In this document: positions 10,402 to 49,304 of the stretch, in pieces
How positions within the stretch are numbered: position 1 is the first letter of the stretch
How the letters are laid out: every line of letters starts with the position of its first letter
Source: an uncultured Patescibacteria group bacterium
GTDB taxonomy: Bacteria; Patescibacteriota; Minisyncoccia; Phycocordibacterales; UBA12088
Reading direction: 5' to 3'
Length of the DNA: 49,304 nucleotides
Assembly (NCBI GenBank): GCA_947259245.1
Contig: CAMYLP010000011.1
Span: 1 to 49,304, forward strand
Position numbers and translations under genes: made by a program
Notes under the pieces: model-generated
Database searches by the model: none
What the model saw: the letters and a program-made list of their open reading frames with translations, nothing else
What the model was told of the DNA's origin: nothing

Positions 10402-13230
<2,829 letters not shown>

Positions 13231-13277
13231 ATCGGTGTATACTGTGTTCGACGCGTAAAAATCTACTATACAACGAT

Positions 13278-13976
13278 ATGACAACAAATAAAAAGTACCA
13301 GCATCTCTTCTTCGACCTCGATAACACAATTACGAGAAGTCGTTCGCCAATAACCGACGAGATGAGGGTGCGTATCATGAGTATGCCGGAAGACATTGTG
13401 GTCATTTCGGGTGCAGCCGTGCCACAAATGGAGCAACAGTTAGGAGACATTGAGGCCTACCTGCTCGGTCAGAATGGAAACCATGCCGTCTACAAAGGCA
13501 AAGAGCTTTGGAACGATGCGCTCACTGAGTCCGACGTCGCTGAGATCGAGCGGCACATCGAGTCACTACAACGTGACTGGGAGGTCCCCGATGAGAATGA
13601 CCTTGTCGAATATCGGGGTTGTCAGCTATCGTATTCGATATATGGACACCACGCCCCTTACGAAGAAAAGGAAGCATTCGATCCGGACCAAAAAAAGCGT
13701 CGTGCATTGCTCGCAGCCTCACCGCTTCATTCCTCAAACATAGAGGTAAAGATAGCGGGCACGACGACGCTTGATTATTTTAAGAAAGGTATGAATAAGG
13801 GCGCAAATATTACACGTCTCATAGATGAACTTGGATGGGACAAGCACGATTGTGTATACATTGGCGACGCGCTCTTCCCCGGCGGAAATGATGAAAGTGT
13901 TGTCGGTGTGATAGAAACAAGGGCCGTGAACAATCCAGACGACACGTACGCGCTTTTGACGCGCATCAGCATGTAG
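13278..13976 (+). CDS. HAD-superfamily phosphatase, phosphomannomutase-like (HAD-IIB)
   Basis: 232 residues. HAD motif I FFDLDNT at 11-17 gives nucleophile Asp13 and acid Asp15; motif II VVISGAA; a lysine-bearing DYFKKGMNKGANI segment; and motif IV YIGDALFPGGND near 195-206. The KG...NI and GD...PGGND signatures resemble eukaryotic-type phosphomannomutase and related sugar-phosphate HADs. It is transcribed divergently from leuS across 47 bases. A TACTAT box at 13264-13269 lies 8 bases before the ATG, so a near-leaderless mRNA is possible. Exact substrate (hexose phosphate mutase or phosphatase) cannot be told. Confidence 0.85.
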   Translation: MTTNKKYQHLFFDLDNTITRSRSPITDEMRVRIMSMPEDIVVISGAAVPQMEQQLGDIEAYLLGQNGNHAVYKGKELWNDALTESDVAEIERHIESLQRDWEVPDENDLVEYRGCQLSYSIYGHHAPYEEKEAFDPDQKKRRALLAASPLHSSNIEVKIAGTTTLDYFKKGMNKGANITRLIDELGWDKHDCVYIGDALFPGGNDESVVGVIETRAVNNPDDTYALLTRISM

Positions 13977-24597: not shown

Positions 24598-25947
24598 TTA
24601 CGTGGTGTACAGCTCCGCATGTGCTGCCTTGAACAGTTTGAAGGTTTTGAGGAGCTTCTCTCGCGTCTTGTCAGACAGATCCTTACTGCTGTGTATTTCC
24701 ACCAGGAGGTGTTCGTGCTGGTCACGTAGGAAGCGGACAAGTTCGTGGGCCCCGTTCATGGTCGCCTCGACGGAAACATCATCGAAGAGTCCCTCGTTGG
24801 CCGCAACTATGACCGCAACCTGCTCCTCAAAAGCGCGTGGTTCCGAGTGAGGTTGCTTGAGTACCTCCACGAGACGCGCACCTTTGTTGAGTCGACGTGT
24901 GGTCTCTTCGTCCAGGTCGCTCGAGAATTGTGCGAAGGCCTCAAGCTCGCGATACTGGGCCAGCTCTATGCGCATCTTCCCTGCCACCTTCTTCATGGCC
25001 CGTGTTTGTGCCGCGCTGCCGACGCGGGATACTGACAAACCTACATTGATAGCAGGGCGTACTCCTTTGTTGAATAGATCGGTCTCGAGGTATATCTGGC
25101 CGTCGGTGATCGAAATGACGTTGGTCGGTATGTACGCAGATACATCTCCCTCCTGTGTTTCAATTATCGGCAGTGCGGTAATTGACCCGCCACCCTGCTC
25201 CTGTGACAGTTTCGCCGAGCGCTCAAGGAGTCGTGAATGAAGGTAGAAGATATCACCCGGATATGCCTCGCGTCCGGGTGGACGACGGAGAAGCAACGAC
25301 ACTTCACGGTAGGCGATAGATTGTTTGGAAAGATCGTCATATATGATGACTACGTCCTTCCCGTCCTCCATGAAGCGTTCTGCCATGGTAACGCCCGCGT
25401 ATGGTGCAAGAAACTGAAGTGCCGCGGGATCTGAAGCAGGTGCATCCACCACGATGGTGTACTTCATCGCGCCTGCATCCTTGAGCTTCGCCACTATCTT
25501 TGCGGTTTTACTTTCTTTCTGCCCGATAGCGACATAGACACAAATTGGTCTATGGCTCTCATCTTCATACAACTGGCTTAAGATGGTATCGATAGCGATC
25601 GTGGTCTTGCCGGTGAACCGGTCCCCAATGATGAGCTCACGTTGTCCACGTCCAATAGGTATCATGCTGTCCACCGCCTTCAGGCCGGTATGGATGGGTT
25701 CGTTCACAGGTGCGCGCTCTATAACGGGGTGAGCAGGACGCTCAACCGGGTATAGTGTGTCGGTCGCGATGGGCCCCTGTCCATCCAGAGGCTCACCGAG
25801 AGCGTTTACCACTCGACCGATGAGAGCATCACCGACCGGTACAGAAAGTACGCGACCGGTTGAACGTACGGTCATACCTTCTTTCACACGACGTGTATCG
25901 CCGAGGACCACCGCACGTATGCCGTGTTCTTCAAGGTTCAGTATCAT
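24598..25947 (-). CDS. atpA: ATP synthase F1 alpha subunit, 5' end damaged or shortened
   Basis: 449 residues from ATG 25947, against about 500 normally. From [17 protein letters not shown] on, everything fits alpha: P-loop [49 protein letters not shown], and the arginine finger in [13 protein letters not shown]. What precedes NLEE in the family, the first 50-60 residues forming most of the N-terminal beta-barrel, is not encoded in frame. Upstream in the same frame LQEQGRLYG joins on directly, and a separate 21-codon frame with a proper start (25944-26009) ends just after ATG 25947. Either a deletion with frame change in this strain, or an assembly error; see findings. Confidence 0.9.
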
Positions 25948-26009
25948 GCCGTAGAGACGTCCCTGCTCTTGTAGTGCTGTCGTAGTTTTTCTACAATCGT
26001 TGTGGTCAT
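25944..26009 (-). other. remnant of the original atpA start
   Basis: ATG at 26009 overlaps the atpH stop (ATGA) exactly as an atp-operon start would. It encodes 21 residues beginning [14 protein letters not shown], which look like an alpha-subunit N-terminal helix, then hits TGA at 25944-25946. Relative to it, the alpha coding frame is shifted by -1; five consecutive A residues lie at the eighth codon. Confidence 0.6.
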
Positions 26010-26416
26010 ACGTATCGTGCGCTAGTAATAAGTTTTCTATAGAGCTCTAGTAATATTCGTTTATGCGTACGGTCAACACGCTTACCCTTCGCCTCAACTG
26101 AGTACCCGCCAATGACTGTTGGGTCGATATGGGTCGTACAATCATCTGGAGTGACGCCCATGATTCGCGCGTACGCTGCAATCTGGTCTGCAAAACGGCT
26201 TCTGTCTTCCTCACGTGCCAATCTCAGGGATGCGCTGGTGCTCGTACTCCTGACCAGTTCAATTTTTTCGTACTCACGCATTATCTTTGGAAGGAGGCCC
26301 ATATGGCCACGTCGACGAAGTATGCCGACAAGGTTGAGAACAAGTACATCACATTGCTCGTCATCCTTCCCGTAAGAAGCATTATAGAGTGCCTCTGCAT
26401 ACTGTGTTGCCTTCAT
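26006..26416 (-). CDS. atpH: ATP synthase F1 delta subunit, short
   Basis: 136 residues, about 40 fewer than usual. [13 protein letters not shown] is the family start, and the C-terminal [32 protein letters not shown] matches the conserved IGG...K...D...L block that binds subunit b. Delta joins the peripheral stalk to F1. Order and spacing (2 bases after atpF) support the call. Confidence 0.9.
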
Positions 26417-40578: not shown

Positions 40579-41775
40579 CTAACGTGTGTCTTGTAGTCGT
40601 AGTGGGTGTATCACACCAACGAGCATGATGGCCGCCAATATGAGCCAGAGGTGCTGTAGCGACAGGGTCGTGGGGTATGTGATCGCGAGGAGCGCTCCCG
40701 CGATCGCGGGACCGAGACTGTAGGCGAGAGGACGTAGCATGCGGAAAATGGAAAGAATGCTTGTGTCATCGCCGTCTATCTGTTTGAAGAAGTACGTCTC
40801 GGTCATGCTCTCGATGAGCGCAGTGCCCACACGGGTGACCATGAGAACACCCGCCCACACCCACATGCTGGTGCTATCAAGCCAAAAGAGCGTGGCGGTC
40901 GAAACGCTCGCGATGATGAAGCCGGTCGCCATGAGCTCTTTCTCGCCTAAAAGCTTGTCCGCTATCTTCCCCGCCGGGTACTCAATGAGCACATACGGCA
41001 CGAGCATTACAAAGAGAATGATACCGATCTCCGGCCACGAAAATCCCACGCTGAGGTGCAAGTATATCGGAAGGTACACGACGTACCAGGAGAAAAAGAA
41101 CCGCATAAGGAACTGTGCGGCGGACACATGGTACAAGTTCTTGTCACGCCAGATTGCCTGCAGTATGCGTTTTGGGGATAACACCTCGTACTGCGGGTCA
41201 ACAAAGTTCCGAAAACGTACATTGAGTATCATAAGCACCGGCAACAGGTAGATGGCACTCGCCAAGTACGCCCACTCATACCGTGCGCCATCTCCCGCAA
41301 GGTACCCGGAGATGACAGGTGAGAAGAGTGCGGCAAGAAGCGCCATCGAAAGGAATATACCGCGTATCGACCCCGTACTTCCCTCGTCATGGTTGTTGCT
41401 TTCAAGGAAGACATCAAAGCAGAACAACGTCACCGGTATCAACATCGTGTGCACCGCAAAGAAGACGAATATCCAACCGAGGTCCGTGACGAACGCGAGA
41501 CCGAGTGATGATACCAAGTTGAGACTGGTGGCGAGCAGTGCCACGTTGTAGCCGCCGTACTTTGTGAGGAAGACAGCGGTTGTGGCGAGGAGGAGCACGG
41601 TCAAGGCAGAGCTTATGGCGAACATGAGACCCACATCGCTCTGAGAGAGAAAACGTTCAAGGTAGGAGCTGTTTATGTAGTGCACCGCGAAGAAATGGAA
41701 GCCGTGGAACAAGCTCGCGGCGTAGAGCCAGCCGAAGATGCCAGACTTATGAAAACTTCGTAGTATGTACTCCAT
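40579..41775 (-). CDS. major facilitator superfamily transporter
   Basis: 398 residues, about 12 hydrophobic segments in two halves. Partial MFS marks: LTKYGGYNVALLATSL after TM2-3, ISGYLAGDG, a long cytoplasmic loop before RDKNLYHVSAAQFLMRFFFSWYVVYLP, and VLIEYPAGKIADKLLGEKE, the A/B-loop-like motif of the second half. Substrate unknown. Convergent with rnj across 29 bases with no clear terminator. Confidence 0.88.
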   Translation of the reverse strand: MEYILRSFHKSGIFGWLYAASLFHGFHFFAVHYINSSYLERFLSQSDVGLMFAISSALTVLLLATTAVFLTKYGGYNVALLATSLNLVSSLGLAFVTDLGWIFVFFAVHTMLIPVTLFCFDVFLESNNHDEGSTGSIRGIFLSMALLAALFSPVISGYLAGDGARYEWAYLASAIYLLPVLMILNVRFRNFVDPQYEVLSPKRILQAIWRDKNLYHVSAAQFLMRFFFSWYVVYLPIYLHLSVGFSWPEIGIILFVMLVPYVLIEYPAGKIADKLLGEKELMATGFIIASVSTATLFWLDSTSMWVWAGVLMVTRVGTALIESMTETYFFKQIDGDDTSILSIFRMLRPLAYSLGPAIAGALLAITYPTTLSLQHLWLILAAIMLVGVIHPLRLQDTR

Positions 41776-41852: not shown

Positions 41853-44138
41853 CTACTGACCGAGCTCGTAGAGGCGCTTTACTTCAGCGGCGGACAGAGT
41901 GCGGTCGTATATGCGGACATCGTCGAGAGTACCGTCGAAGGTCGAGTCTCTGGAAACACAGTCTGTTCCATCTGGGTCACGACCTATGCAAACTGGAGAA
42001 GACCCTACGTCTAGCGTTCCAGAAAACAATGTTGTGTCTTTGAGCACCCCGTCAAGGTATAGTGTAATCGTTGAACCATCATACGTACTGACAACATGTG
42101 TCCACGTGTTCAACAAATTTGAGGAAGACGTACTAGCTGCGTACCAACCACCGTCTATGCGATAACTTGCACAGATTGTGGCAGCGGGACAGGCACCGTT
42201 CGCGGCTTCTACAATGGATAAACCGTATGAGTCAGCGTTCCGCTTGTCGATTATTGACCTACCCCCTGCAGAAGGGTCGGTGATACTTTCAGTAAAGATC
42301 CATGCGCTAAGCGTTATGTTTTCCGTGATGTTGAAATCACTAGTATAAGGTATTTCCACGTAATCCGCTGCTCCATCAAAGTGCATGCCCTGACCCAGGG
42401 TGCCAGCATCGGGGCTTCTTGAAGCGGACATAGAGCTTGCAGCGTCGCCGCTATTACCCTGCCCACTCCTGTCCTTCACCTCCGCAGTGGTACTGCCCCA
42501 ATCCATGTCCGGTCCATCAAACGTCCAGTGACCGACGAGTCCGTCCTCGAGTGTGGGATTCGAGGTCACCGTCTCCGCGACGCGCGTCGTGTTGCCGAGG
42601 TCAAAGATGCGCTTCACCTCAGCAGCGGACAGCGCGCGGTCGTAGACGCGGACGTCGTCGATGAGACCGTCAAACATTTCGGCAGGTAAGCCTATATGTG
42701 ATCTCGATCCTATATAGGCGTCTGCAGTACAGTCAGCAATGGCTGCGGGAATGCTTGTTGTGTTCTCAGCTCCTAGTACTCCATCAACATACACTCGAAG
42801 GGCTGTGGAGGGCTCGTACACGCCTACGACATGGTGCCACTCCCCATCCGCTGCTTCATTGTAGCCAGATGGGGTTTCGCTCGCATTGCAGGTTCCGGCA
42901 ATTCTAAACTCGTATCTTGTGGACGCAGTACCGGGGTCGGTCTGTAATCTGTATGAGCGTTGGTCACCTTGCCAATCTACTTTTCCAAAGATTGAGGTGT
43001 TCTGATTTGTGTCTGCTTTTACCCAGGTTGAAATTGTCAGTGCTCCGGTAATTTGCAACTCTGAGGGGTTACCTAAATTCACAGTGTCGAATCCCCCGTC
43101 AAACTCCAGTGCCTGTCCCAACACACCGGAGGTGGGGCTACTCGTCGCTGACATACTGGTCGTCGCATTACCGTGGTTGCCATTTCCACTCCTGTCCTTC
43201 ACCTCAGCGGTCGTACTGCCCCAATCCATGTCCGGTCCGTCAAAGGTCCAGTGGCCGACGAGACCATCCTCGAGCGTGGGGTTCGAGGTCACCGTCTCTG
43301 CGACGCGTGTGGTGTTACCGAGGTCAAAGATGCGCTTCACCTCGGCAGCGGACAGCGCGCGGTCGTAGACACGGACGTCGTCGATGAGACCGTCAAACTC
43401 TCTGTCATACGTGCCGTTATTGTCAAAGGCACCAACAGCGAGTGGGCGTGTGTTGTTTTCCGGACCGGCAGTTGTGTTTTCGGCCTTGAGTGCACCATCA
43501 AAGTATACATACCATTTTGTGCCATCGTAGACGCCGGCGACATGACGCCATTCGTTCGTACTCCAACCGTCTATAACCCAACTTGCTTGATGCTCCGTAC
43601 CAGAGTATGATCCTGCGTCTAAGTACAGCGTGCTGGACCAGTTCCGTATTCTTAGAAAATATGCTTCATCGGTGCCATCGAATCCCTTGCCAACGATATA
43701 GTTAAATTCGTCACCAACCCCGTCAGTGAACAAGTGGACATTAACCCACGCGCTGAGCGTCACGGGTCCGTCCTCGACAATAGACGCGACGTCGCCCATG
43801 TCTACATAGTCGTTCGCTCCGTCAAAGTACATGCCCTGTCCGACTACGCCCGCGTCAGGACTCTTCGAAGCAGACATCGTGGTAGTAGCATTGCCGTGAT
43901 TTCCCTGCCCGCTCACATCCTGTACCTCAGCCGTAGTGCTGCTCCAATCCATATCTTTCCCGTCGAAGGTCCAGTGGCCGACGAGACCGCGAGAAAGGTC
44001 GGGGTTTGTGGTGAGTGTAACGCCGATGCGCGTGTCGCCGCGTGTCGTAAACACCACGTACGCTGCCCCGACAAAGAGCATGGTGAGGAGAACGATGATG
44101 AATTTTGTGCTGTGTTTCATACGTGTGGTATTTCCCAT
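41853..44138 (-). CDS. LamG-repeat surface protein (paralogue 3)
   Basis: 761 residues. A membrane anchor at about 13-31 (FIIVLLTMLFVGAAYVVF) followed by three LamG/concanavalin-like domains, each opening with GLVGHWTFDG (about residues 50, 297 and 538) and closing with DDVRVYDRALSAAEVKR or a variant. The linker between domains (FDLGNTTRVAETVTSNPTLED) is repeated almost unchanged at DNA level. LamG domains bind carbohydrates or proteins; surface display and adhesion to a host are inferred. Start ATG 44138, five bases after the stop of paralogue 2; ATG 44120 is also possible. Confidence 0.9.
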   Translation of the reverse strand: MGNTTRMKHSTKFIIVLLTMLFVGAAYVVFTTRGDTRIGVTLTTNPDLSRGLVGHWTFDGKDMDWSSTTAEVQDVSGQGNHGNATTTMSASKSPDAGVVGQGMYFDGANDYVDMGDVASIVEDGPVTLSAWVNVHLFTDGVGDEFNYIVGKGFDGTDEAYFLRIRNWSSTLYLDAGSYSGTEHQASWVIDGWSTNEWRHVAGVYDGTKWYVYFDGALKAENTTAGPENNTRPLAVGAFDNNGTYDREFDGLIDDVRVYDRALSAAEVKRIFDLGNTTRVAETVTSNPTLEDGLVGHWTFDGPDMDWGSTTAEVKDRSGNGNHGNATTSMSATSSPTSGVLGQALEFDGGFDTVNLGNPSELQITGALTISTWVKADTNQNTSIFGKVDWQGDQRSYRLQTDPGTASTRYEFRIAGTCNASETPSGYNEAADGEWHHVVGVYEPSTALRVYVDGVLGAENTTSIPAAIADCTADAYIGSRSHIGLPAEMFDGLIDDVRVYDRALSAAEVKRIFDLGNTTRVAETVTSNPTLEDGLVGHWTFDGPDMDWGSTTAEVKDRSGQGNSGDAASSMSASRSPDAGTLGQGMHFDGAADYVEIPYTSDFNITENITLSAWIFTESITDPSAGGRSIIDKRNADSYGLSIVEAANGACPAATICASYRIDGGWYAASTSSSNLLNTWTHVVSTYDGSTITLYLDGVLKDTTLFSGTLDVGSSPVCIGRDPDGTDCVSRDSTFDGTLDDVRIYDRTLSAAEVKRLYELGQ
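42413..42676 (-). repeat. LamG linker DNA repeat, copy 1
   Basis: About 260 bases encoding domain end, FDLGNTTRVAETVTS linker and next GLVGHWTFDG opening. Near-identical copies lie at about 43135-43396, 44690-44953 and 45345-45600. Limits are approximate. Confidence 0.7.
43135..43396 (-). repeat. LamG linker DNA repeat, copy 2
   Basis: Same unit as 42413-42676, with a few substitutions. Confidence 0.7.
43909..44138 (-). repeat. N-terminal module direct repeat, copy A
   Basis: About 230 bases covering anchor and first GLVGHWTFDG of paralogue 3. Copy B at 46078-46310 differs at few positions, showing whole-gene duplication (offset 2172 bases). Confidence 0.8.
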
Positions 44139-44689
44139 GGTACCTACTGCCCTAGCTCGTAGAGCCGCTTCACCTCAGCGGCAGACAGAGCGCGGTCGTA
44201 TATGCGGACGTCGTCTATCTGACCCCCGTATTCCTCCCACCACGAGTCGGCCGAATCACCAATCATGATATCTTGATTGTTAAAGGACCATGCTGCGCTG
44301 TTTACACTAGAAGTGGCGACAACGCCATCTACATACACTTCATTGTTCTCTCCGTTACCCTGACGAAACACGTATGCTACATGATGCCACTCCTTAAGGG
44401 TTGTGGTGCCAGCATCTAGGTTTGACGAAAATCCAGAGTTTGGCTTGTTAGATACGTTCAGAAGTCCCTCTGGATGGAGTATTATATACACGCCATTGCG
44501 GCTATTCACTGCATCGTGTCTGCCTATCAATATAGCAACATCTTCTGCGCTGGTACCGTCAGTGCCCCATACACCATCAGTTTTGTACCAGAGGGCCCAC
44601 GTCTGAGTACCTGCATCAAAAACAGTACCAGATGTAATGTCTACCCAATCGTCCGTGCCATTAAACTGTATACCCTGCCCGATAATGCC

Positions 44690-44953
44690 AATCTCGGGAC
44701 TCTTCGAAACTGACATAGAGCTTGCAGCGTCGCCACTATTACCCTGCCCACTCCTGTCCTTCACCTCAGCGGTCGTACTGCCCCAGTCCATATCCGGTCC
44801 ATCAAACGTCCAATGGCCGACGAGATCATCTTCGAGCGTGGTGTTCGAGGTCACTGTCTCCGCGACGCGTGTGGTGTTGCCGAGGTCGTAGAGGCGCTTT
44901 ACTTCAGCGGCAGACAAAGCGCGGTCGTATATGCGGACGTCGTCGATATGTCC
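44690..44953 (-). repeat. LamG linker DNA repeat, copy 3
   Basis: Same unit as 42413-42676, within paralogue 2; reads DLGNTTRVAETVTSNTTLEDD. Confidence 0.65.
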
Positions 44954-45344
44954 ATCAAAGTATTCGGAAGAGCCGATGACACCATATCCGATTTTAGTGA
45001 CATTGGATACAATGGCATCTTGTGCACCTGTACCGGTTGTGCCACTGTCAACGAGTACCCCATCCTTATACAATGCAAAACTTGTTGATGTAAATACTGC
45101 GGTAACGTGAGCCCACTCGCCAAGACTCATTATAGAGGTCTTCAATGCCGTGAATTCCCGCCCTTTCGGTACTCACACTACCCGCCAAGGCAACGATAGT
45201 TTCATAAAAATTCAGAGAATTGGGCTTGATCCATGCGCTAATGGTCATGTCGTCAGAATACGTATTTTCAGCGATGTTTACGTAATCGCCTACTCCGTCA
45301 AAATTCATACCCTGCCCCAACACGCCGATAGATCTGCTTTTCGA

Positions 45345-45600
45345 GGCCGACATGGTGGTGGTAGCATTGCCGTTATTCCCTTGACCGCTTCTATCCTTCA
45401 CTTCCGCGGTAGTGCTGCTCCAGTCTATATCTGGACCATCAAACGTCCAGTGGCCGACGAGACCATCTTCGAGCGTCGGGTTCGAGGTCACTGTCTCCGC
45501 AACGCGTGTGGTGTTACCGAGGTCGTAGAGCCGCTTCACCTCAGCAGCGGACAGAGCGCGGTCGTATATGCGGACGTCGTCTATCTTTCCCTTCATCGCG
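45345..45600 (-). repeat. LamG linker DNA repeat, copy 4
   Basis: Same unit, first linker of paralogue 2. Confidence 0.65.
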
Positions 45601-46077
45601 TTCCCTCCTCCTTCTCCTCCGCTGCCAATCGATACTTGTTTGCTGGTTGCATTATCATCGTACGTACCGCTTGTAGTATCTGAACCGTCAGGAACACCGT
45701 TCAGATAGAACGTCACGGTGGCAGGTGTGCCAGCGCCAATGGTCACCACAGCGTGATACCATCGGTTGGCTTCAAGTGCGGTATTGGCTTCAGCATCGAC
45801 ACTTATAGTCGCTTCTGCGAAGGCTAGTTTGTTGCTGGTGTTGTTCTTCAGGAAATACCATTCGCCAACATCATGGCTTATGATCGCTCTGTAACCGGAG
45901 ACGTCTTCAAAATACACCCATGCGGCTAATGTAAAATCACGGTTCAATCTTGTTGATATATCATCTCCAGCAAGTATTTCATCTTTGACTCCATCAAACT
46001 GCATACCCTGACCTACAACACCGGATGTGGGTGATGTGGCGGCACTCATCGTGGTCGTGGCATTCCCGTGATTTCCC

Positions 46078-46310
46078 TGCCCGCTCACATCCTGTACCTC
46101 AGAGGTCGTGCTGCCCCAGTCCATATCCGGTCCGTCGAACGTCCAGTGGCCGACGAGACCGCGAGAAAGGTCGGGATTTGTGGTGAGTGTAAGGCCGATG
46201 CGCGTGTCGCCGCGTGTCGTAAACACCACGTACGCTGCCCCGACAATGAGTATGGTGAGGAGAACGATGATGAATTTTGTGCTGTGTTTCATGCGTGAAA
46301 TATTTCCCAT
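46078..46310 (-). repeat. N-terminal module direct repeat, copy B
   Basis: Partner of 43909-44138; start of paralogue 2. Confidence 0.8.
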
Positions 46311-46315
46311 GGTGC

Positions 46316-48691
46316 CTACTGCCCTAGCTCGTAGAGGCGCTTTACTTCTGCGGCGGAAAGAACGCGGTCGTATATGCGGACGTCGTCCAGAAAACCATCC
46401 CACACCTCATTAGTCCATCCTCCTCCAATTTTGGTCGTGTCGTTGCTAGCGGTTGGTGAGTTTGTTTCAGACTCATCTAGTTCTTCAACGCCATTTATAT
46501 ATATCTTCACGTTATTCGCTGAATCATCAAAGGTGGCGACAACATGGTACCAAGTATTAATGTCTAGATCGACCGATGTAGTATGAAATATGTACCCCCC
46601 TGCATAAAATCCGAACTGTACTTCATCATAGCCGGTTAGTAAATAATAGTCAGCCGGTGTTCCGCCACCGGTTTTAGTGATGATGTCTAGATATTGAGGT
46701 TGTGACCTAGTGTTAATCCAAGATGATAGTGTAATTTCCCCGGTAAAGTCAATGTCTCCCACATCGACATAGTCATTGCTACCATCAAACTCCAACGCCT
46801 GGCCAAGTTTGCCGATGGTGGTGGTGGTGGCGTGATTTATCCAGTCACCGTGGTTGCCGTTCCCGGAGCTGTCGCGAACCTCTGCCGTCCAAGCGGAGAT
46901 ATCCATGTCTTTCCCGTCGAAGCTCCAGTGGCCTGCCAGTCCATCATTAAGGTTGGGGTTGGTGGTGATGGTCTTCCCGATGCGCGTCGTGTTGCCGAGG
47001 TCAAACATGCGCTTCACCTCCTCAGCCGAGAGCGCACGGTCGTAGATGCGGACATCGTCAATTATGCCTTCCATGTTATCTGCTCCTCCTTCGCTTGCGC
47101 TTCCAATTACCACGGGCTTACTTGTTGCATTGTCGTCATACGTGCTGCTTGTTTCCCCAGAGCCATCGTTAACTCCATTTAAATAGAATGTCACCGTTGC
47201 AGGTGTGCCTGGGCCAACGGTAACTACGGCGTGATACCATGTGTTCGCTACGAGCGAAGTGTTGGCCTCAACGTCAACACTTACAAATGTTTCCGCAAGA
47301 GCCAGTTTGTTGCTTGTGTTGTTCTTCAAAAAATACCATTCACCATCATCATGACTGAGAATAGCTCTGTAATTGGATACATCTTTAAAATACACCCATG
47401 CCGCAAGTGTAAAGTCACGATTTAATCTTGTTGATGTATCATCTCCTGCCGTTACTAGATCGTCCGTCCCGTCAAATTCAAGTGCCTGTCCGAGTGTGCC
47501 TGGAACAAGAGCAATTTCGGATGTGGTGGCGCTTATTACTACGCGACCAGCATTCCCAGCGACGCCATCGCCTTCGTCGCCACCGGCACCGCCCTGGCCG
47601 GCGTTGCCGGCATAATCGCTATCGCCATTGTTCCCCGCGCTTGTGCCGCTCCCGGCAGTGGTACTCGTCGCACTCGCTGTACTGGTGGCGTAGCTTGAAC
47701 CACCACCACCACCACCGCCGCCTTCGTCCACGGCTGCCTCTCCACCGCCGCCGCCATAGTATCCACCGCCGCCACCGCCGCCGCCGCCGCAGTTTGTGGG
47801 GCTTTCACTGTCGCCGCCTGCACCGCCGCCGTTACTTCCGCCATTGGTAGCGCCACCCGTTCCTGAGTTACATCCGGCTGATACGGCGCCACCCGCTCCA
47901 CCCTGCTCAGCGCTGCCGTTTGTACCGTCGGAGCCATCGGCATGCGCTCCGCTTCCGCCCGCGCCCCCTGAAGTTTGCGTGCCCCCTTCGCCGAAGTCGC
48001 CGCCGCCAACTGTTTTACCTGTATTGCTACCGCCGACGGTGCCGTTCCCACCCGTGGTGCCGCCGCCCTCACCACCGTCACCACCAACGTCGTGCTGGTC
48101 ATGTGAGCTACCTCCTCCACCACCACCCCCTGCCGCAGCAAGAAGTAGTGCTCCGCTTCTGTTTACTTCACTATGCCCCCCACCACCACCTCCTTCACCG
48201 CCTTCAGCGTGCCCAGCGCCGGCAGCGCCACCGCCGCCAACAACGACACTAAGAGTTTCGCCCGGTGTAACCGGTATCGTTCCCACGATAAAGCCACCAC
48301 CACCACCATCGCCCCCATATTCTTCCCCCGTAGTGCCGTCCGTCTCCCCGCCACCGCCGCCTCCTCCTGCGCCCCATGCCTTCACGGTGATCTCTGTCAC
48401 ACCCTGCGGAACGGTATACGTGTCGGCACCTGCAACTGAATATGTGGTACTACTTAGTCCTTCTGTGAAGATGGTGCCATCGTTGCCGTTTCCCGACACG
48501 TCTGTGGTCGTAGCGCCAACTATAGTACCCCCATCGAACGTCCAGTGGCCGACGAGGCCGCGAGAAAGGTCAGGGTTGGTGGTAATGGTGACGCCAAATG
48601 TGGTATCGCCACGTGTCTGGAACACGATAAACAGACCACCCAAAAGGAGTACAGAAAGAAGGATGGCGATGAATTTCTGTGTTTGAGTCAT
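46316..48691 (-). CDS. LamG protein with inserted glycine-rich domain (paralogue 1)
   Basis: 791 residues. Anchor at about 7-25, then the first LamG opens (GLVGHWTFDGG, about 45-55; DVSGNGNDGTI, 64-74) but is interrupted at about 85-385 by a domain starting TYTVPQGVTEITVKAWGAGG, running through many poly-Gly stretches with SSY and NCGG, and ending AGRVVISAT. This resembles the glycine-rich domain known from ALK/LTK kinases and many bacterial surface proteins. LamG then resumes with PGTLGQALEFDG (about 392). A second LamG begins near 560 (GLAGHWSFDG). Only this paralogue has the insert. Two paralogues follow downstream on the same strand. Confidence 0.9.
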   Translation of the reverse strand: MTQTQKFIAILLSVLLLGGLFIVFQTRGDTTFGVTITTNPDLSRGLVGHWTFDGGTIVGATTTDVSGNGNDGTIFTEGLSSTTYSVAGADTYTVPQGVTEITVKAWGAGGGGGGGETDGTTGEEYGGDGGGGGFIVGTIPVTPGETLSVVVGGGGAAGAGHAEGGEGGGGGGHSEVNRSGALLLAAAGGGGGGGSSHDQHDVGGDGGEGGGTTGGNGTVGGSNTGKTVGGGDFGEGGTQTSGGAGGSGAHADGSDGTNGSAEQGGAGGAVSAGCNSGTGGATNGGSNGGGAGGDSESPTNCGGGGGGGGGYYGGGGGEAAVDEGGGGGGGGSSYATSTASATSTTAGSGTSAGNNGDSDYAGNAGQGGAGGDEGDGVAGNAGRVVISATTSEIALVPGTLGQALEFDGTDDLVTAGDDTSTRLNRDFTLAAWVYFKDVSNYRAILSHDDGEWYFLKNNTSNKLALAETFVSVDVEANTSLVANTWYHAVVTVGPGTPATVTFYLNGVNDGSGETSSTYDDNATSKPVVIGSASEGGADNMEGIIDDVRIYDRALSAEEVKRMFDLGNTTRIGKTITTNPNLNDGLAGHWSFDGKDMDISAWTAEVRDSSGNGNHGDWINHATTTTIGKLGQALEFDGSNDYVDVGDIDFTGEITLSSWINTRSQPQYLDIITKTGGGTPADYYLLTGYDEVQFGFYAGGYIFHTTSVDLDINTWYHVVATFDDSANNVKIYINGVEELDESETNSPTASNDTTKIGGGWTNEVWDGFLDDVRIYDRVLSAAEVKRLYELGQ

Positions 48692-48792: not shown

Positions 48793-49304
48793 CTACGCTG
48801 CAGGTTCCGGCTCCGACGCTGGTGCTGGGTCAGATGTCGGCTCTGGCTCAGGAGTTGGCGTTGGTTCTGGCTCAGGAGCTGGTTGTGGTGTCGGTTCAGG
48901 CGTTGGGTCAGGCGCTGGTGCTGGTTCCGGTGCAGGCTCAGGTGTCGGTTCTGGGTCAGGTGCAGGCTCGGGACTTGGTACCGTCGTCGGGTCCGGATCA
49001 GGTGCTGGTTCCGGTGCAGGCTCAGGTGTCGGTTCTGGGTCAGGAGCTGGCTCGGGACTTGGTACCGTCGTCGGGTCCGGCAGCATGTCAGGCGGCGTCG
49101 GGTCCGGTTCTATAGTGTTCTTCGGTGGTGCCGCCATACAGTCACCCTCGCTCTGCACGAGCTCGCCGTTGTGCACGCGTACACAGTACGGGTTACCCGT
49201 GACCTCGTCGTAGAGCTGGATACCGGTCGGCATGGTCTCGGTACCGACCGTGAGCTCGCCGGTGAAGATGCTCGCGAATGAGGCGAAGCCGTCTCGTATC
49301 GATA
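48793..49304 (-). CDS. Pro-rich protein, 5' end outside window
   Basis: The frame is open to the window edge, with 23 readable codons before the first in-window ATG (49233), so the true start lies outside. The readable part begins [20 protein letters not shown], then [25 protein letters not shown], typical of a structural/surface protein module common near such genes in Patescibacteria, with two Cys. The last 110 residues are Pro-Glu/Pro-Asp-Pro-Thr repeats, an extended spacer likely to reach through a cell wall or surface layer. It ends 102 bases before the LamG operon. Confidence 0.75.
48917..49080 (-). repeat. 84-base tandem repeat in the Pro-rich gene
   Basis: Two near-identical 80-base units (48917-48996 and 49001-49080) separated by 4 bases, differing at about three positions. 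Encodes a 28-residue period with [19 protein letters not shown]. Confidence 0.85.

Follow-up and report, generated by a model that had tools for sequence, protein, structure and literature searches.

Origin of the Three-Gene LamG Locus

How did one locus of a small Patescibacteria genome come to hold three LamG genes whose products share domain ends and linkers, but differ in most of their lectin-like cores? The genome (949,805 bases in 37 contigs, 97% complete) was searched with Laminin_G_3 (PF13385). Matches were obtained at nine places, eight of them over the cut-off, and all fell within a single locus of the window, i.e., the 49,304-nucleotide stretch of DNA analyzed here; the remainder of the 0.95-Mb genome yielded no match.

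The locus comprises three adjacent genes, all on the minus strand. LamG gene 1 (g1; 46316..48691) encodes 791 aa with its own anchor, a glycine-rich insert and two LamG domains. LamG gene 2 (g2; 44144..46310) encodes an anchor and three LamG domains and is frameshifted in the assembly. LamG gene 3 (g3; 41853..44138) is intact and encodes 761 aa with an anchor and three LamG domains. The preliminary description had named three adjacent paralogues with 5-base gaps, and the coordinates confirmed this: exactly 5 bases separate g1 from g2 (46311..46315, minus strand), flanked by repeated tail and head sequence, and g2 from g3 (44139..44143, minus strand). The tail-gap-head boundary recurs nearly identically where g1 meets g2 and where g2 meets g3; the g2 head (MGNISR) and the g3 head (MGNTTR) resemble the linker sequence LGNTTR. 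The Laminin_G_3 cut-off of 27.6 bits was passed by the three LamG stretches of g3 (276.8 bits) and by two of g1. The glycine-rich insert in the first LamG unit of g1 (47744..48433, minus strand) scored 20.9 bits with Gly_rich_2, below the cut-off of 24.3. In the favored reading, g1 to g3 arose as tandem copies that encode the same kind of predicted surface protein, with two or three ConA-like (LamG_3) jelly-roll domains attached to an N-terminal membrane helix.

Upstream of g1 lies the Pro/Glu-rich C-terminal end of a fibre gene (48793..49302, minus strand), which runs on past the window, beyond a 32-base N-run gap of the contig (49305–49336). The fibre protein matched Peptidase_S74 with 24.1 bits, over the Pfam cut-off of 22, and its Pro/Glu-rich tail holds tandem repeats.

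Repeated Junctions, Different Cores and a Mosaic Gene

Repeat families of 5 × 300 nt and 8 × 84 nt were found in the locus, which is far beyond chance, so the repeated DNA modules described earlier are real. Four junctions of 97 codons, all on the minus strand, were compared: g2 junction 1 (45294..45584), g2 junction 2 (44657..44947), g3 junction 1 (43095..43385) and g3 junction 2 (42372..42662). The g1 junction (C-part, linker and N-part; 46772..47062, minus strand) was missed by the pattern and was left out of this set. The four junctions were 77–84% identical in DNA, with a best stretch of 92.5% identity over 213 nt. Thus, the near-identical linkers that had been claimed exist over this stretch, but not over the whole junctions. 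Where the junctions encode identical amino acids, the same codon was used in 53–66% of cases, compared with about 35% expected when codon usage is taken from 12 further genes of the window.

The seven intact cores gave a different picture. Protein identity was 16–36% in 20 of the 21 core pairs, and codon sharing in these pairs (22–48%) scattered around the expectation (31–41%). The cores of g1 D1 (47063..47467, minus strand) and g2 D1 were the sole clearly alike pair (76% aa, 73% nt). The cores are therefore different, as had been stated, with the exception of this one pair. The anchor thought to be the same in all three genes is nearly the same in g2 and g3 (93% nt identity; 92% over the 264 nt of the g2 N-terminal module, 46047..46310, minus strand), while that of g1 differs (65% nt identity to g2).

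Comparison along the first unit of g2 revealed a change of partner. Identity to g3 was 84–98% until about residue 81 and 33–69% thereafter, and identity to g1 climbed to 62–82% across the first core (g2 core D1 and C-part, 45516..45983, minus strand). On these identities, g2 is a mosaic of g3 and g1, with a g3-like anchor module and a g1-like first core. Under a single duplication history without recombination, the young anchor that g2 shares with g3 would be accompanied by an equally young core. In addition, g3 junction 2 switches partner internally, its left part being nearer to g3 junction 1 and its right part nearer to g2 junction 2 (maximum chi-square, p = 6e-4, 5000 permutations, uncorrected). 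Among the 12 junction trios tested by maximum chi-square, again uncorrected, four gave p < 0.01 and eight gave p > 0.03.

Flanks and Cores in Related Genomes

Only one of five other genomes of the same genus (G002) had any match, which was weak and located elsewhere. The MFS gene that comes next after the LamG genes was present in all five, and in G001, G002 and G003 no LamG gene separates the MFS gene from the tail of the fibre gene that faces it. In these three genomes the MFS gene and RNase J point in one direction; in the window the MFS gene (40579–41775, minus strand) is inverted with respect to RNase J. Elsewhere in the family, LamG genes of other genera stand beside GAPDH or RpiB, and in G008 and G009 they follow a fibre gene. 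In G009 (L037, G009:C17, 4446–7397), an extra ORF between the fibre gene and the LamG gene encodes a LamG-type domain that is interrupted by a long insert.

A junction match was obtained in 49 of the 397 genomes of the order. Loci were sampled from 40 of these 49 genomes, from G007 and from one named contig. Of 45 LamG loci, 10 had at least two LamG ORFs on one strand. Enough upstream DNA to look for the fibre was available at 34 loci, and an S74-type ORF was found upstream at 17 of them by comparison with the fibre protein of this contig. G218, which the filter of this count missed, also has an S74-type ORF, and two further loci showed a GIGT-type motif only. For G313, the sequence match was not borne out by Pfam.

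Of 157 domain pieces, the 125 with enough coverage were compared and 32 were left out; 121 of the 125 belong to the 36 genomes that have more than one. The nearest neighbor was found in the same genome for the flanks of 58 of these 121 domains, compared with the cores of 8; label shuffles gave a mean of 2.9 and a maximum of 11 in 1000. Flank identity was 0.587 within and 0.484 between genomes, whereas core identity was 0.203 within and 0.192 between genomes and thus near saturation. Since the cores are near saturation, the contrast between flanks and cores alone is no proof of exchange, and fast core divergence beside conserved flanks would be able to yield much of it without swapping.

Such a history of old duplications and unequal rates is an unlikely explanation of the locus. 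It holds that the flanks are under structural constraint because the domain ends pack together, that the cores diverged fast by diversifying or relaxed selection, and that there was no exchange. The order-wide conservation of flank residues in the entropy profile agrees with it, as does the near saturation of the cores. The codon sharing of the junctions above expectation does not, and neither does a g2 whose young anchor is common with g3 but whose core is common with g1. The comparison of two relatives also argues against it.

These relatives, G218 and G313, are two species of one genus. Their first domains share a 412-base stretch with 4 differences, compared with 57 differences in the 611 remaining bases of the ungapped alignment (Fisher p = 1.4e-9). 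Their neighboring fibre genes are 12% different across 965 bases, and the likeness is about 46% between the D2 cores and slight between the D3 cores. A core far more alike than its flanks, lying in diverged DNA, together with the contrast between flanks and cores, suggests that the cores moved as cassettes while the conserved flanks around them stayed in place. As a history, the proposed recombination among repeated flanks is supported by the g2 mosaic, the codon sharing of the junctions and the shared core of G218 and G313.

Further candidate exchanges were observed. The core of G215 D1 recurs as G074b D2, in another gene and at another position, with 79% aa identity, while the flanks are 63% identical. 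The cores of G008 D2 and G009 D3 are 72% alike, with the flanks of each nearer to its own genome. When 132 domains were taken at looser coverage, 12 between-genome pairs had cores at least 40% alike; both flanks were nearer to the own genome in four of these pairs and not in the other eight.

The sequences are all taken from assemblies, most of them fragmented, and any single case, including the island shared by G218 and G313, could be mimicked by a chimeric join. It appears improbable, however, that short-read assembly of repeats created the exchange patterns here and in the relatives as a whole. Chimeric joins do arise easily in repeat-rich genes, and this contig has one gap and a lesion in a conserved gene (atpA, described below). 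Nevertheless, the parts of g2 differ from their partners by 2–38% along their length and are thus not collapsed copies, and the decoupling of flanks and cores spans 36 genomes.

The Frameshift in g2

The middle gene had been described as frameshifted, and in this assembly g2 indeed leaves its frame at about 45100–45170, within the second LamG domain (44897..45299, minus strand). The N-half of this domain corresponds to positions 1–95 of the domain model and the C-half to positions 124–212. By hand count, about 22 nt lie between the halves where the model has 28 positions; D2 of g2 is therefore probably also missing sequence.

On/off variation had been put forward as one meaning of this frameshift. 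A phase-variable contingency locus, in which the frameshift is a switch or marks a real decaying allele replaceable by recombination, would be consistent with the observation that both halves of g2 read well in their own frames. This was judged improbable. No tandem repeat array was found in the three LamG genes and hence none at the g2 lesion, and a 32-base N gap lies on the same contig. Moreover, atpA (24598–25947 or 24598–26010, minus strand) has a similar lesion: its first codons stand in another frame, and residues to about 40–51 are missing in comparison with three same-genus orthologues, i.e., about 40 N-terminal codons were not found. The other orthologues compared align in one frame, apart from matches of the alpha subunit to the beta subunit and vice versa. 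Without a repeat tract at the lesion and with a similar lesion in atpA, an assembly error is likelier than on/off switching, and the g2 frameshift is most likely an assembly lesion. Slipped-strand or programmed switching was rejected because of the absent repeat tract. In another gene of the window, that of leucyl-tRNA synthetase (10402–13329, minus strand), a NUDIX domain (PF00293, residues 410–529) follows the editing domain.

A diversity-generating retroelement (DGR) was also considered and rejected. The genome has one reverse transcriptase, a short one of unassigned type (G000:C34, L117, 805–1617) with the motif LIQGAP, and DGR enzymes carry another motif at this position. On the contig of the reverse transcriptase, no template repeat matching the LamG genes was found, and this contig and the LamG locus have no repeat beyond 15 bases in common.

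Predicted Fold and Function

A ColabFold model of g3 D2, based on 10 sequences from the window and relatives, had a moderate mean pLDDT of 72.6, residues 22–62 being mostly poor. With Z of 17–19, the fold of the model is similar to those of pentraxins, CBM40 sialic-acid modules and an arabinanase module. The single-sequence model of full-length g3 had a mean pLDDT of 34.5, and its usable part was the N-terminal helix (residues 5–26). In the Pfam scan, no enzymatic domain exceeded the cut-off in the LamG proteins. The N-terminal helix and the lack of an enzymatic domain fit a predicted membrane-anchored binding protein, which would have to be exported. According to the model, the LamG domain has a fold that is used for glycan binding and that does not specify the ligand, and on the basis of this fold an adhesin role is plausible. 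The TafC fimbrial protein family (NF052521) matched with 184.5 and 108.1 bits, below the cut-off of 410.

A link to toxins was rejected. Toxin_R_bind_N reached 23.0 bits in g1, below the cut-off of 23.8. The fold and sequence matches include clostridial toxin receptor domains, but also sialidase modules, pentraxins and PAPP-A, and thus the likeness to clostridial toxins reflects the shared jelly-roll fold only. Prophage origin was likewise rejected: the chromosomal neighbors are RNase J, GAPDH, transketolase and ATP synthase, and the setting is shared in other genera. The g3 protein matched 11 PHROGs families, three of them categorized (two as 'virion structural protein', one as 'tail terminator'), and two weak relatives were found on viral contigs.

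Discussion

The explanation that we favor, and hold to be probable, is that a tandem LamG array grew by duplication and was reshuffled by homologous recombination, with the cores as exchangeable cassettes that are likely glycan-binding at the surface. First, the array would have grown, probably, by duplication of whole anchor-to-tail units. Second, every domain would bring along repeats x and y, formed by its conserved start, its conserved end and its linker, with the core as cassette (x-core-y-x-core-y), and homologous recombination would have reshuffled the array. Third, glycans or glycoproteins would be the most likely ligands of the proteins at the cell surface, where they would act beside or together with the upstream S74-type fibre, and changed cores would change the binding target. 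A wider proposal is offered tentatively: within one Patescibacteria order, the S74 fibre and triple-LamG genes may work as a pair in attachment. The lectin cores would be plug-in cassettes, passed among paralogues and across species through homologous recombination in the conserved flanks, so that recognition of the partner (host) could change without any change of fibre, anchor or scaffold.

The proposed anatomy and exchange pattern resemble domain movement (DOMO) in the specificity (S) genes of type I and IIG restriction systems, where, in the accessible part of the account, DNA-level repeats flank variable cassettes (x-TRD1-y-x-TRD2-y), cassettes turn up in a different position or a different gene, and cassette number can change (PMC3077401). 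In the LamG family, a cassette at a different position was seen between genomes and genes (G074b D2 and G215 D1), one genome per species being compared. Unlike the cassettes of DOMO (PMC3077401), those of the LamG genes are lectin-type cores that belong to surface proteins, and most genes hold three. The nanohaloarchaeon SVXNc, a tiny ectosymbiont, has three LamG genes and a trimeric-autotransporter-like adhesin gene in one operon; SVXNc is an archaeon, the portion of the account at hand describes no cassette exchange, and the neighbor in the present locus is an S74-type fibre (PMC10266531). PilC of Streptococcus sanguinis, according to the available excerpt, is a modular type IV pilin that likewise carries a ConA-like lectin module on a surface protein, but the Pfam scan found no pilin domain in the window proteins (PMC8179133). 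In the MgPa adhesion operon of Mycoplasma genitalium, a variable adhesion protein (MgpC) is encoded in a minimal genome; in contrast to that operon as described in the accessible passages, the genome search found no further LamG copies outside the locus (PMC2169797).

In a literature search with thin coverage of subscription journals and preprints, no title or abstract addressed LamG cassette exchange, or S74 with LamG, in Patescibacteria. As far as the searches reach, the combination of LamG cores as cassettes, an order-wide Patescibacteria family and a fibre partner is new.

If cassettes are exchanged as proposed, cores should track hosts and flanks should track the bacterial lineage. Core swaps in membrane-anchored strings of domains would let the cell surface change its adhesion target. 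For host recognition and host change in tiny episymbiotic bacteria, the locus offers named candidate proteins.
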